A stretch of DNA of 57,941 nt from Nautiliaceae bacterium (GTDB lineage: Bacteria; Campylobacterota; Campylobacteria; Campylobacterales; Nautiliaceae). The DNA is taken from positions 1 through 57,941 of the forward strand of contig JALVAK010000143.1 of the NCBI GenBank assembly GCA_027011225.1, read 5' to 3'. The notes beneath the pieces are model-generated. The model did not search any database, had not been told where the DNA came from, and worked only from the letters and a program-made list of their open reading frames with translations. Below are positions 8,912 through 24,673 of this stretch, piece after piece. Numbering within the stretch: position 1 is the first letter of the stretch; each line of letters starts with the position of its first letter. The translations under genes were made by a program, and so were the position numbers.

Positions 8912-9472
8912 TTATTCTTGAGATAAAGCTTCTAAAAGATTTGGGTGAGCAAAATGTGTCATAGTTTTATCATTATGACATCTAACACAGCTAACATCTT
9001 CTCCTGCTTTTTTAGGCTCCCAATAATATTTTTCATGAATTTGTTTAATATTTTCACTAAGCCCTATTGCACGCTCAGGCTCTTTTATACCCTCATGACA
9101 ATGTAAACACGCACTATCATATACATAATTTTCCATTTCATTAAAGTTTTCTTTAAAATCAACCATCTTTTTAAGACCAATATGAGCTAGAAAGTCTCTA
9201 GTACCACTAATACCTTTCATTACTAAATAACCAGCTAATGAATTATGAGGTAAATGACAATCGGTACAATGATGAGCCGCAAATCCTTGAGGGTTGTTTC
9301 CTCCATGCACACTATATTTAAAAGTCTCTCCCATTGGTTTCATTTCATGACAGCTCATACAAAATTCTGGCGTACCTGTTTTATCAACTGCAACTGCTGC
9401 AATATATGAAATACCAAGACCAATAATTACACCGCAAATAAGTGAGCCCCACAATACTTTTTTATTTGCCAT
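8912..9472 (-). CDS. Tetrahaem NapC/NrfH-family quinol dehydrogenase
   Basis: A 186-residue protein with one N-terminal signal anchor (residues 7-30) and a periplasmic domain with four haem motifs: CMSCH (38-42), CTDCH (69-73), CLHCH (122-126), CVRCH (162-166). CMSCHEMKPM resembles the Met-ligated first haem of NrfH. The family oxidises menaquinol and passes electrons to periplasmic oxidoreductases. The nap cluster carries no napC (NapGH serve NapA), so the likely partner is the octahaem Hao at 21032 (HaoC role) or another reductase outside the window; that pairing is inferred. It sits alone between the cytochrome-assembly operon and the mod/two-component operon. The ribosome site is AAGGTAAGGT. 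Confidence 0.9.
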   Translation of the reverse strand: MANKKVLWGSLICGVIIGLGISYIAAVAVDKTGTPEFCMSCHEMKPMGETFKYSVHGGNNPQGFAAHHCTDCHLPHNSLAGYLVMKGISGTRDFLAHIGLKKMVDFKENFNEMENYVYDSACLHCHEGIKEPERAIGLSENIKQIHEKYYWEPKKAGEDVSCVRCHNDKTMTHFAHPNLLEALSQE

Positions 9473-19646: not shown

Positions 19647-20600
19647 ATGAAAAAAATATTTCTTTTTTTTATAAGTGCAATTTTTGTATTTGCGATTACT
19701 GATATAAAACCTTACAAACTTTATAAATATGATTACTACATATCAAAAATTGCCTTTAATAAAAAGTTACTTGCAATAGGGCTTGAAAATGGCACTATTT
19801 TGATAAATGAATTTAGTACAAATAAAAATATAGATAAAATAACTCTTCCAAAAATTCATGATTTTATGGGAGAGCTGATTCCTATGCCAATTTATTCAAT
19901 TGATATCTCTCCTGATGGAAAAAATATTTTTATTTTAACTGAAGGCGAAGATGCAAAAAGAGAAATGTTTATTTATAATCTAAAAAACAAAAAGCTAACT
20001 AATGTGTATGAAACAAAAGAGACTTTAATGAAAGCTAACTATATCAATAACACACAAATCTTTATAGCATTACTTAGTGATGAGGTAGAGCTTTTTGATT
20101 TAAATACAAAAAAAATTATTTACAAAAATCAAGTAGGAAACTATGTATTTTCTACATATGCTCTAAATGAAAAAAAATCACTTGCCGCAATTGGTGATGA
20201 GAGTGGAAGCATAAAAATTGTAGATGTTAAAAGTGGTAAAAGAATAAAAAAAATTCAAGGCTTTAACAAAGATAAAACAATTTCACTAGATTTTGTGAAA
20301 AATTATGTAATAAATGGAAGTAGCGATAAAAGAGTAGGAGTTTATGATATAAAAACTAAAAATGCAATTGTTACTCTAAAAGCAAAATTTTTACCATACG
20401 CTAGTGCAATTAGCCCTGATGTAAAACAATTTGCTATTCAATATGATGAAAAATATAATATTAAAGTTTTTGATATGAATAAAAAGCCTCTATTTTTATT
20501 AAAAGGTCACAAAATGCCACTTAGCGATATGAAATATTTAAATAAAAATACAATAATAAGCTACTCACCAAGTGAAATAATAATATGGAAGGAGAAATAA
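19647..20600 (+). CDS. napL: NapL, periplasmic beta-propeller nap accessory protein
   Basis: A 317-residue protein with a signal peptide (MKKIFLFFISAIFVFA) and repeated WD-like beta segments (KLLAIGLENGTILINEF, SIDISPDGKNIFILT, LAAIGDESGSIKIVD, VINGSSDKRVGVYD). NapL occurs in the nap operons of Campylobacterota; its precise role is not established. Position between napF and napD is the standard order. Its stop overlaps the napD start by one base. Confidence 0.88.
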   Translation: MKKIFLFFISAIFVFAITDIKPYKLYKYDYYISKIAFNKKLLAIGLENGTILINEFSTNKNIDKITLPKIHDFMGELIPMPIYSIDISPDGKNIFILTEGEDAKREMFIYNLKNKKLTNVYETKETLMKANYINNTQIFIALLSDEVELFDLNTKKIIYKNQVGNYVFSTYALNEKKSLAAIGDESGSIKIVDVKSGKRIKKIQGFNKDKTISLDFVKNYVINGSSDKRVGVYDIKTKNAIVTLKAKFLPYASAISPDVKQFAIQYDEKYNIKVFDMNKKPLFLLKGHKMPLSDMKYLNKNTIISYSPSEIIIWKEK

Positions 20601-21031: not shown

Positions 21032-22570
21032 ATGAAAAAAGCACTAACAGCAGGTCTAAGCGTAGCAGCAATCACATCTGTAGCATTTGCAGCTAACAGC
21101 TTAGATTCTAACCCAAATTACAAAAAACTTAAAAACTTTCACCCAAAAGGTGTAAGTAACGACCAATGTTTAATGTGTCACAAAACTACTGACCCTGGAA
21201 TTGTAGCTGATTGGCAACATTCTAAACACGCAAAAGCAGGTGTAGGCTGTGTTGAATGTCACGTAGTACCAAAAGACTATCCAACTGCATTCAAAAATCA
21301 CCCAATGCAAGGTGCTAACTGGACTGTTCAAATTGCTGTTTCATCTGTAACTTGTGCAAAATGTCACGCAAAAGAAGTAACTGAATATCTAAACTCTGGA
21401 CACGCAAGAGGTGCAGCTCAATGGCTTGCAGTAAATGGAACTAAACATGGATATTTAATGACTAAACTTTCATATTATTATGAAAGTTTAAAAGGTAGAA
21501 ATCCAACTCTAAATGGCGTACCTGGCGATAAAATGGCAAAAGGTATTAGAAGAGATGGTGAAGTATTTTATGCAAATGAAAAAAATCCAAAAATTGCTGA
21601 TTTAAACGTAGCAAACATTTGTATCCAATGTCACGGAACAACTATAAAACTTGATAAAAATGGTGTTCCAGACCCAAGAACTTGGCCAAATGATGGTATT
21701 GCTTCATTATATCCAGATGGAGGAGTTGGAAACTGTCTAAGCTGTCACAGCAGACATAAATTCAGCGCAGCTGAAGCTAGACATCCAGCAAGCTGTGGTA
21801 ACTGTCACTTAGGACCAGACCATCCAATGAAAGAAGTTTTTGAATCAAGTGTACATGGACACATCTTTGATACAAATGAAGAAGATTATAAATTCGATAC
21901 AGGTGAGCAAATCCCTGGTAAAACTCTAAGAGCTGCTACATGTTTTACATGTCATATGGCAGCAATTAATGGTCTTAAATCAACTCACAACGTATCACTT
22001 AGACTTAAATGGAATCTTTGGGCACCAGATAGCTTCTTAAGAACAGGTGGATATGAAACAGCTGGTTGGGCATTCTGGAAAGGTGGAGGAAAAGTTATTG
22101 GTGGCAAAACTGTAATTAGAGGTAATCCAAAAGCTGGTAATCCTGCAGGTCCAGAAGCAGCTAGAGCTGATATGAAAAAAGTTTGTATGACTTGTCACCA
22201 AGCTACATTTACAAACAATTATTTCCAAAGAGTAGATGCAGCTGTAAAAGTTTACAATGAATACAAAGCATTTGCTAATAAAATGATGAAAGATTTAAAA
22301 TCAAAAGGTTTAATTAAATCTGATGTATGGAGTGACCCATTCTTCAAACTATACTATTACCTATGGCATCATGAAGGAAGAAGATTTAGACATGGTGCAG
22401 CTATGGGAAGCCCAGATTATGCACATTGGCATGGAGTATTCCAAGTAATGCAAGATATTAGAGAAATGAAAGATATCTATGATTACAGAATGAAAATGTA
22501 CAAAAAATATAAAGACGCTAAAAAAGTTCTTGAAAATGAGCCTCCAATGCCAGTTGTTACTCACGAATAA
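21032..22570 (+). CDS. haoA: Octahaem cytochrome c, epsilon-type hydroxylamine oxidoreductase family (Hao)
   Basis: A 512-residue secreted cytochrome (signal MKKALTAGLSVAAITSVAFA) with eight CxxCH sites, Cys at 46, 73, 108, 197, 235, 255, 304 and 385. Spacing, GPDHPMKEVFESSVHG and the C-terminal LWHHEGRRFRHG and PDYAHWHG blocks are those of the HAO family, not of NrfA (which would have a CxxCK site) or Otr. In Campylobacterota, epsilon-Hao enzymes are reported to act reductively on nitrite/hydroxylamine, with electrons from a NapC-type partner. It sits 87 nt after napD and ends in a terminator, so it belongs functionally to nitrate reduction. Whether nitrite or hydroxylamine is the physiological substrate is open. 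Confidence 0.92.
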   Translation: MKKALTAGLSVAAITSVAFAANSLDSNPNYKKLKNFHPKGVSNDQCLMCHKTTDPGIVADWQHSKHAKAGVGCVECHVVPKDYPTAFKNHPMQGANWTVQIAVSSVTCAKCHAKEVTEYLNSGHARGAAQWLAVNGTKHGYLMTKLSYYYESLKGRNPTLNGVPGDKMAKGIRRDGEVFYANEKNPKIADLNVANICIQCHGTTIKLDKNGVPDPRTWPNDGIASLYPDGGVGNCLSCHSRHKFSAAEARHPASCGNCHLGPDHPMKEVFESSVHGHIFDTNEEDYKFDTGEQIPGKTLRAATCFTCHMAAINGLKSTHNVSLRLKWNLWAPDSFLRTGGYETAGWAFWKGGGKVIGGKTVIRGNPKAGNPAGPEAARADMKKVCMTCHQATFTNNYFQRVDAAVKVYNEYKAFANKMMKDLKSKGLIKSDVWSDPFFKLYYYLWHHEGRRFRHGAAMGSPDYAHWHGVFQVMQDIREMKDIYDYRMKMYKKYKDAKKVLENEPPMPVVTHE

Positions 22571-22590
22571 GCCCTCTTTTTTGGGCTTTT
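22569..22590 (+). terminator. Rho-independent terminator after hao
   Basis: AAGCCC, 8-nt T-rich loop, GGGCTT then more T. The stem begins in the hao stop codon and closes the nap-hao transcript. Confidence 0.85.
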
Positions 22591-22659: not shown

Positions 22660-22896
22660 TTATTTTTTTCCGTATTTTTTAGCTGCTTCTTCGATTTCTT
22701 TATCACTCATTCCTTTAGCAATATTAACCATCATAGGATTGCCTTTTCCAGCTTTAAATTCTTTCATTTTTTTAACAATTTCTGCTGGAGTCATGTTGTC
22801 AAGTTTTTTTGCCATTCCACCATTATGGCACATAGCACAATCTTGATATGCAAATCCTAATGCCGCTAATGATAAAAACGCTAATAGTTTTTTCAT
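22660..22896 (-). CDS. Small monohaem cytochrome c (c553-like)
   Basis: A 78-residue secreted protein: signal peptide MKKLLAFLSLAALGFA, one haem site CAMCH at once after it, and a C-terminal helix with GNPMMVNIAKGMSD, whose Met residues can supply the distal ligand. Mature size is about 60 residues, very small for a cytochrome c. It resembles the 75-residue protein at 23754-23981, so the two look like paralogues. Role: probably a soluble periplasmic electron carrier, partner unknown; it stands next to, and convergent with, hao. Good AAAGGAGTAGTA ribosome site. Confidence 0.85.
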   Translation of the reverse strand: MKKLLAFLSLAALGFAYQDCAMCHNGGMAKKLDNMTPAEIVKKMKEFKAGKGNPMMVNIAKGMSDKEIEEAAKKYGKK

Positions 22897-22911
22897 TACT
22901 ACTCCTTTTAT

Positions 22912-22938
22912 TCAAATGTAATTCAAATTATATCAAAT
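22912..22938 (-). repeat. Three TCAAAT direct repeats with helical spacing upstream of the small cytochrome
   Basis: TCAAAT at 22912, 22923 and 22933 (ATTTGA on the gene's strand), spaced 11 and 10 bp, overlapping a TATAAT -10 box (22927-22932). One-turn direct repeats are how OmpR/PhoB-type regulators bind. AT-richness makes chance possible. Confidence 0.35.
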
Positions 22939-23750
22939 TAAGTTCTAAATTTCATAGGAAGAGGAGCAAATTTCATTTTACATTTATTTTTAATGATTTT
23001 TCCATTTTTATCTATTATGATTTCATAATAACTATCAGCTCCCATATCATCAGTGGAATACAGCTCTAAAATAATTTTTTCATTATCTATTTTATATTTA
23101 TCAAAACTCTCTTCACTTCCTAAATCAAAAAATCTAATCCAACCTTTATTTAAATTAGCTATAAACGCATCTTGAGTAGTATTTTTTATTGTACCTATTA
23201 CAAATAAGTCATCTCCTACTTTAAATACAAAATTGCCATTAATAGAATTTTTAAGTTGCATTTTCTTAATTAGTTTTCCATTTTTATAAATTTCTATATA
23301 GCTTTTACCATCTCTAAATACATCAATTAATACGTAATAATCTTTATTTTTTACATACAAATCTTTAATAAGAGCATATTTTCTTGGAATTTTCACTCTT
23401 TTAATAACCCTTCCATTCTCATCTAAAACTAAAATTTCTGGAAAATAATTTGAATCTAACCCTGCTACATAAATTTTATCATTATCAACTGCAATTTTTT
23501 TAGTATCTAAATTAGTAGAAATAGTTTTGACTTGATTAAAATTTTTATCCAAAAAAACAATTTTAGCTCCATTTGCGCTTGGAGATGAAAAAATATAAAA
23601 ATTTTTAAATTTAATTAAATCATCACTTGTTATATGATATTTCTTTATTAAAGTTTTATCAATATTAACTTTTTCAATTTTCTTATCTATTTGAGACGTA
23701 GCACACCCTGCTAAAAAAATTATTGCTGCTAAATTTATTATCTTTTTCAT
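22938..23750 (-). CDS. Lipoprotein of unknown function, probable beta-propeller
   Basis: I do not recognise the family. It is 270 residues, with a lipoprotein signal (MKKIINLAAIIFLAGCA) and repeated short beta units such as IVFLDKNFNQVKTIS, ILVLDENGRVIKRVK and YIEIYKNGKLIKKM, each ending in a G/N-turn. These repeats resemble NHL/6-bladed propeller proteins. It is sandwiched between two monohaem cytochrome genes (3 nt to the one upstream), suggesting a membrane-attached scaffold for them; this is inference from position only. Confidence 0.7.
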   Translation of the reverse strand: MKKIINLAAIIFLAGCATSQIDKKIEKVNIDKTLIKKYHITSDDLIKFKNFYIFSSPSANGAKIVFLDKNFNQVKTISTNLDTKKIAVDNDKIYVAGLDSNYFPEILVLDENGRVIKRVKIPRKYALIKDLYVKNKDYYVLIDVFRDGKSYIEIYKNGKLIKKMQLKNSINGNFVFKVGDDLFVIGTIKNTTQDAFIANLNKGWIRFFDLGSEESFDKYKIDNEKIILELYSTDDMGADSYYEIIIDKNGKIIKNKCKMKFAPLPMKFRT

Positions 23751-23753
23751 ATC

Positions 23754-23981
23754 TTACCTTCCATATATTTTTAAAATATTTTTAATATCTTCTTTTGTTA
23801 AGCTTCTAGCAATATAAGACATGGTGCTATTTTCTTTTTTTAGCTCATTTAATCTTTTTTGAATATAACTTTTTTTAAGAGAATTTAAATCTACTTCTTT
23901 TCTTCCATTATGACAACTCATACAAAAAGTATAATTTTTTGCAAAAATTAAAATAGGTAAAATTAATAATATCTTTTTCAT
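23754..23981 (-). CDS. Small monohaem cytochrome c
   Basis: A 75-residue secreted protein: signal MKKILLILPILIFAKN, haem site CMSCHNGRK, and a C-terminal half (STMSYIARSLTKEDIKNILKIYG) that lines up with GNPMMVNIAKGMSDKEIEEAAKKYG of the 78-residue cytochrome at 22660. It overlaps ccdA by 4 nt, so it is made together with a thiol-reductant exporter used in cytochrome maturation. Electron partners are unknown. Confidence 0.8.
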   Translation of the reverse strand: MKKILLILPILIFAKNYTFCMSCHNGRKEVDLNSLKKSYIQKRLNELKKENSTMSYIARSLTKEDIKNILKIYGR

Positions 23982-24673
23982 TTTAACCCTTTATAAAGCA
24001 TATAAACACCAACTAATATAAGCAAAATCCCACTAATTTTTTCAATTATTCCCATATATTTTTTTAATTTTTCTATAATTTTTAAACTCATTAAAGTAAA
24101 AATTGCCATCAAAATAAAAGGCAAAGCAAGACCTATAGTGTATAAAATCATCATTATTATACTTTTAGTAGGCTCAGTGGCTGCCATCCCTACAATAGTA
24201 CCAAAAATTGGACCAATACAAGGCGTCCAACCAAGAGCAAAAGAGACACCTAGTAAAAAACTTCCTACATTTTGTAAATTAAGTCTTTTTTCGTATTGTA
24301 AAAATTTAATTCTTATAAACCCTCCTAAATGCAAACCAAAAATAATAATAATTAATGCTGCTACGATATTAAAAATTTTATTATGTAAAAAATTTCCTAT
24401 CAAATTTGCCATTGCAGCACCAAGTAAAATAAATACAACAGAAAAACCTAAAATAAACATTACAGAATTTATAAAAATTTTTATTTTTTCTTTTTTATCT
24501 AATTTCCTTTGTTGAAGCTCTGAAGCGCTAATACCTGTAATATAAAAAAAGTAAATTGGCACTAAAGGCAAAACACAAGGTGAGAGAAATGATAAAACTC
24601 CTGCTATAAAACTTACAATAAAAGGCATTGAATCAAAATAGTTAAAAAGCGAATATACCAAATTATCAAGCAT
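23978..24673 (-). CDS. ccdA: CcdA/DsbD-family transmembrane thiol reductase
   Basis: A 231-residue membrane protein with six helices. The two redox cysteines sit in the family motifs LSPCVLPLVPIY and GWTPCIGPIFGT. It carries electrons from cytoplasmic thioredoxin to periplasmic thioredoxin-like proteins, here plausibly the CPPC protein at 8413. It overlaps hemY by 8 nt and the monohaem cytochrome by 4 nt. Confidence 0.93.
   Translation of the reverse strand: MLDNLVYSLFNYFDSMPFIVSFIAGVLSFLSPCVLPLVPIYFFYITGISASELQQRKLDKKEKIKIFINSVMFILGFSVVFILLGAAMANLIGNFLHNKIFNIVAALIIIIFGLHLGGFIRIKFLQYEKRLNLQNVGSFLLGVSFALGWTPCIGPIFGTIVGMAATEPTKSIIMMILYTIGLALPFILMAIFTLMSLKIIEKLKKYMGIIEKISGILLILVGVYMLYKGLK

Follow-up and report, generated by a model that had tools for sequence, protein, structure and literature searches.

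A small cytochrome conserved beside octahaem hao in Nautiliaceae, with a patchy paralogue and a relocated, predicted propeller lipoprotein

The conserved part of a Nautiliaceae locus in which two miniature monohaem cytochromes flank a lipoprotein is one of the cytochromes, here CYTA, together with a gene for an octahaem hydroxylamine oxidoreductase-like protein (hao), and not the three-gene set. The stretch of DNA analysed (the window) is a whole contig of 57,941 bases from this hydrothermal-vent bacterium. With little better than even confidence, we read CYTA as a shuttle of the c553/c552 type that serves Hao, the second cytochrome (CYTB) as a dispensable paralogue and the lipoprotein (LIPO) as a passenger in the operon. 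An initial annotation made from the sequence alone had proposed that the three proteins could form a periplasmic electron-transfer unit; the two cytochromes and the lipoprotein at 22660-23981 were described exactly, but their order occurs in only three genomes and the unit was not borne out.

In the window, lgt, a hemG-like gene, a ccdA-like gene, CYTB, LIPO and CYTA form a tight series on the minus strand. The gene for the CcdA-like membrane protein (DsbD_TM; 23978-24673) overlaps the start of CYTB (75 aa; 23754-23981) by 4 nt, CYTB is separated by 3 nt from LIPO (270 aa; 22938-23750) and LIPO by 41 nt from CYTA (78 aa; 22660-22896). The hao gene (21032-22570, plus strand) arrives from the opposite side, downstream of the nap genes, and is convergent with CYTA; a terminator-like hairpin, identified by consensus match only, lies between the two genes, where hao ends (22569-22588, plus strand). 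Further away, a minus-strand gene at 8912-9472 encodes a tetrahaem quinol dehydrogenase of the NapC/NrfH family (CycB/cM552 type), a putative electron source for Hao; this role is taken from two earlier studies (PMC2628731, PMC3701875). Together with hao it makes up the gene pair of the reverse-HURM pathway in the window genome.

Part of this arrangement has been known since 2009. The Nautilia profundicola genome paper (PMC2628731) places hao (GAmH_1248) beside a small monohaem cytochrome c homologous to cytochromes c552 (GAmH_1249), of which CYTA is the counterpart, and ccdA follows as GAmH_1250. The nearby hao and ccdA genes to which the initial annotation pointed are real, and the link to hao, already in that paper, proved robust for CYTA alone and not for the three genes together. 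The accessible portions of the Nautilia papers cover hao, nap and cycB, with nothing found there on CYTA beyond the 2009 mention; the reverse-HURM study reports induction of hao (8.5-fold) and cycB/napC on nitrate (PMC3701875).

CYTA and CYTB had been taken for duplicates of about 60 residues when mature, and the comparison upholds this. Judged by eye, both carry signal peptides of 14-16 residues, giving mature proteins of about 62 and 61 aa, respectively; the CxxCHNG motif begins at residue 20 in both, and the C-terminal motif reads MVNIA in CYTA and MSYIA in CYTB. The two are 33% identical (BLASTP pair E-value 2e-10), with a local alignment score of 89 against 41 ± 5 for a shuffled null in which the haem motif was held in place; none of 2000 shuffles scored as high. 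All 29 CYTA and CYTB proteins keep a single N-terminal CxxCH and one Met 34 to 37 residues after the first Cys; the likely haem ligands of CYTA are His24 and, in the sixth position, Met56. The Pfam family Cytochrome_CBB3 matches 14 of 14 CYTA proteins, the window copy falling under the curated cut-off. Against the PDB, the CYTA profile matches chains of cytochrome c4, the flavocytochrome c haem subunit FccA, c6 and c552 (E-values of 1e-5 to 3e-8 for the FccA and c4 domains), and CYTB alone gives only a weak c552 match. The CYTA model has helices at residues 27-32, 37-48, 54-61 and 65-75, with block pLDDT values of 83-91 from residue 31 onward; its best fold matches are c552, c553, FccA and c4, although the Foldseek E-values for c552 and c553 are only 0.08-0.14. 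Cleavage of the signal peptide at its apparent site would leave just 3-5 residues before the first Cys, in a part where the CYTA model is weak (pLDDT 49-61), and the usual class I N-terminal helix may therefore be reduced. CYTA is most likely a class I-type monohaem cytochrome c, a shortened relative of c553 and c552.

Of the 21 Nautiliaceae genomes, 19 yielded CYTA, among them all 12 complete ones, as did both genomes of the sister family; hao turned up in exactly these genomes, 19 of Nautiliaceae and two of the sister family. This co-occurrence is weak evidence, as it is phylogenetically confounded: CYTA and this type of Hao are both lineage-specific. CYTA adjoins hao in 18 of the 19 loci where this can be determined (those of G088 and G158 stop at contig edges), and the adjacency survives both a nap cluster located elsewhere (G048, G062 and G012) and an inverted hao (G136). 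The exception is G030, of the sister family, in which CYTA precedes a response regulator gene and is not beside hao. A scan of genome contigs returned six relatives, all of them metagenome bins from vents that belong to this group; none represented a new lineage.

Several features of these loci vary. Both sister-family genomes place CYTA directly upstream of a response regulator gene (L090:5434-8450, L092:4786-5666), which in G012 is followed by a histidine kinase gene, the gene for the NapC/NrfH-type cytochrome and ccsBA. The hao gene nearest to CYTA in G075 is a broken second copy in two overlapping frames (L081:9111-10683), explained either by decay of a duplicate or by a frameshift in the assembly, with the intact hao next to it. 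In two genomes of the window's genus, G153 and G154, ccdA is absent, together with the thioredoxin-like gene, from the interval separating hemG and the cytochromes (L096:7353-8884, L098:593-2341), and in a single genus (G033 and G101) a hydrophobic protein of 61-62 aa is encoded between ccdA and the cytochromes (L075:8621-8806, L085:8782-8970).

CYTB is patchily distributed: it is present in the window genome (G000), G125, G152, G154, G075 and G033 and absent from most others. It forms a clade of its own apart from CYTA across three genera (support 99/97) and lies directly upstream of CYTA wherever LIPO has not intervened (G154, G075 and G033). Its separate clade, scattered presence and position next to CYTA together indicate an old paralogue that was lost several times or occasionally transferred; it would have arisen by tandem duplication and appears dispensable. 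Other duplicates occur, one CYTA-like in G088 and one remote, on another contig, in G147.

LIPO has a different history. Each Nautiliaceae genome in which it turned up has one copy (that of G113 is split over two contig ends), and in 13 of these genomes, drawn from all four main genera, LIPO follows rsmD, in most cases with a PilZ-domain gene and tgt coming next. These include G154 and G153 of the window's own genus, the latter as a fragment at a contig end. LIPO stands next to CYTA in six genomes, all of that genus (G000, G125, G152, G136, G155 and G156), and the rsmD locus is cleanly closed without it in G000, G125, G136 and G152; in the other two this locus runs into a stretch of N (G155) or a contig end (G156). 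In the LIPO tree the six CYTA-linked proteins cluster as a single clade (100/100), and a concatenated tree groups their genomes with G153 and G154, although without support for the placement of G136. A single relocation within the genus explains the absence from rsmD, the adjacency to CYTA and the single clade: LIPO left the rsmD locus once, recently, in a single branch of that genus. The order CYTB-LIPO-CYTA occurs only in G000, G125 and G152. The scattering that the initial annotation had named as grounds against its proposal is thus found for LIPO and in part for CYTB.

The lipoprotein had been described as propeller-like and of no clear family, and both points hold. Every LIPO sequence examined has a G-C pair closing its hydrophobic N-terminus, consistent with a lipobox signal peptide (LAGC in the window copy, with Cys16). 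An AlphaFold2 model built with 13 homologues predicts 20 strands arranged as five four-stranded blades (mean pLDDT 88.7, pTM 0.81). The best Foldseek matches are mostly propellers of many kinds (E-values of about 1e-6 to 1e-5, TM-scores of about 0.4-0.5), among which there is no specific structural relative; a fold search of BFVD gave assorted propellers only, and no Pfam or NCBIfam family scored over its cut-off. The nap cluster of the window holds a WD40-like propeller of its own, NapL (19647-20600), unrelated to LIPO in sequence, and a relationship between the two was rejected at an hhalign probability of 0.7%. A phage origin of LIPO and the cytochromes was rejected, with no PHROG match. 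In both sister-family genomes LIPO is followed by a gene for a SurA-like PPIase (L090:10162-11892, L091:6544-8271), and in G012 this pair directly follows hao. A link to the foldase was rejected, since a SurA-like gene occurs in 14 of 14 genomes searched and is not beside LIPO in the Nautiliaceae examined.

How CYTA might function is suggested by its neighbourhood. As a periplasmic protein it would serve the adjacent octahaem Hao in nitrite reduction by reverse-HURM; in the simplest case it would pass single electrons between that enzyme and the quinol dehydrogenase of the NapC/NrfH type. Linkage to hao that is independent of nap and ccdA supports this reading, in which the transfer, its partner and its direction are inferred. 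CYTA and Hao are both basic in net charge when haem is left out of the calculation, which gives no obvious reason for them to attract each other electrostatically. The published proposal of Campbell et al. in 2009 (PMC2628731) instead connects the quinol-oxidising cM552 protein to cytochrome c peroxidases, and CYTA could accordingly be a general periplasmic c552 carrier between them, its position beside hao reflecting shared regulation or maturation. CYTA does belong to the family of general c553/c552 carriers, and CCP_MauG proteins occur in 16 of 21 Nautiliaceae. Yet G136, which is 97% complete, has CYTA and no CCP_MauG match, as do the less complete G154, G153 and G158, and CYTA keeps its adjacency to hao through rearrangements. 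An obligatory role as peroxidase donor is weakened by G136, and we regard the general-carrier explanation as possible but rather doubtful. As members of an lgt-hemG-(thioredoxin)-ccdA operon the cytochromes might instead work in the maturation of c-type cytochromes or in haem handling, outside respiration, but this is unlikely: although in Nautiliaceae they come after ccdA, or after hemG where the locus has lost ccdA, G153 and G154 retain CYTA beside hao despite the loss of ccdA and thioredoxin, and in G012 CYTA lies outside that operon and beside hao.

The spacing in the window is operon-like, G125 and G152 share the three-gene order, and LIPO is also next to hao in G012, where it lies directly downstream; all of this would suit a complex of CYTA, CYTB and LIPO. 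Synteny nonetheless rejects such a complex as a conserved one, with LIPO at rsmD in 13 relatives and CYTB missing from most genomes, three of which have LIPO beside CYTA. LIPO also lacks a haem-binding motif, and we give the single complex hardly any credence. A narrower proposal is that the nitrite-reducing Hao of Nautiliales has in CYTA a dedicated donor of single electrons, placed between quinol dehydrogenase and Hao, and that the LIPO propeller tethers either Hao or CYTA to the membrane. This would account for two separate arrivals of LIPO near hao, one next to CYTA in a sub-lineage of the window's genus and one directly downstream of hao in the sister-family genome G012. We consider it very unlikely, even though chance does not fully account for the two arrivals and the G012 adjacency leaves a functional link possible. 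LIPO is most likely an operon passenger outside the redox chain, a membrane-anchored propeller from the unrelated context of rsmD that would have moved once into the ccdA-CYTB-CYTA operon and is co-oriented there.

If CYTA is indeed the redox partner of Hao, it would supply a missing step of reverse-HURM in vent Nautiliaceae, published models of which have the tetrahaem quinol dehydrogenase feed Hao directly. The locus also illustrates how the recent relocation of an unrelated gene can produce an operon with the look of a unit in a single genome.

Among known systems, the window most resembles the N. profundicola locus with its hao, small cytochrome and ccdA (GAmH_1248-1250). G062 has the same hao-CYTA-ccdA arrangement, with a CYTA 73% identical to that of the window; unlike the window, it has no CYTB, and its LIPO is at rsmD. 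LIPO shares the beta-propeller fold of YncE, BamB and XusB and differs from them in having five blades and no sequence similarity. The cytochromes resemble c553-like small cytochromes of the Campylobacterota in motif order, with invariant CxxCH, Lys48 and Met56 and a C-terminal SDxxI helix; what sets CYTA and CYTB apart, in an alignment with such proteins from other families of the order, is the absence of a 7-residue loop following CxxCH, together with a mature length of 61-62 aa. Tandem pairs of such genes are found in those families as well (G070 and G120; L109:6967-7665, L110:5799-6507), which indicates that their tandem duplication is common. The CYTA model also aligns with the flavocytochrome c haem subunit and cytochrome c4 with a probability of about 1.0; those chains are dihaem, unlike CYTA, beside which no flavoprotein partner gene was seen. 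A precedent for a small cytochrome as shuttle for Hao comes from Kuenenia stuttgartiensis, in which only one of the highly similar small cytochromes Kustc0562 and Kustc0563 is an efficient electron-exchange partner of an octahaem HAO (PMC8388095). The Kuenenia enzyme works in the hydroxylamine-oxidising direction, unlike the nitrite-reducing Hao proposed here.
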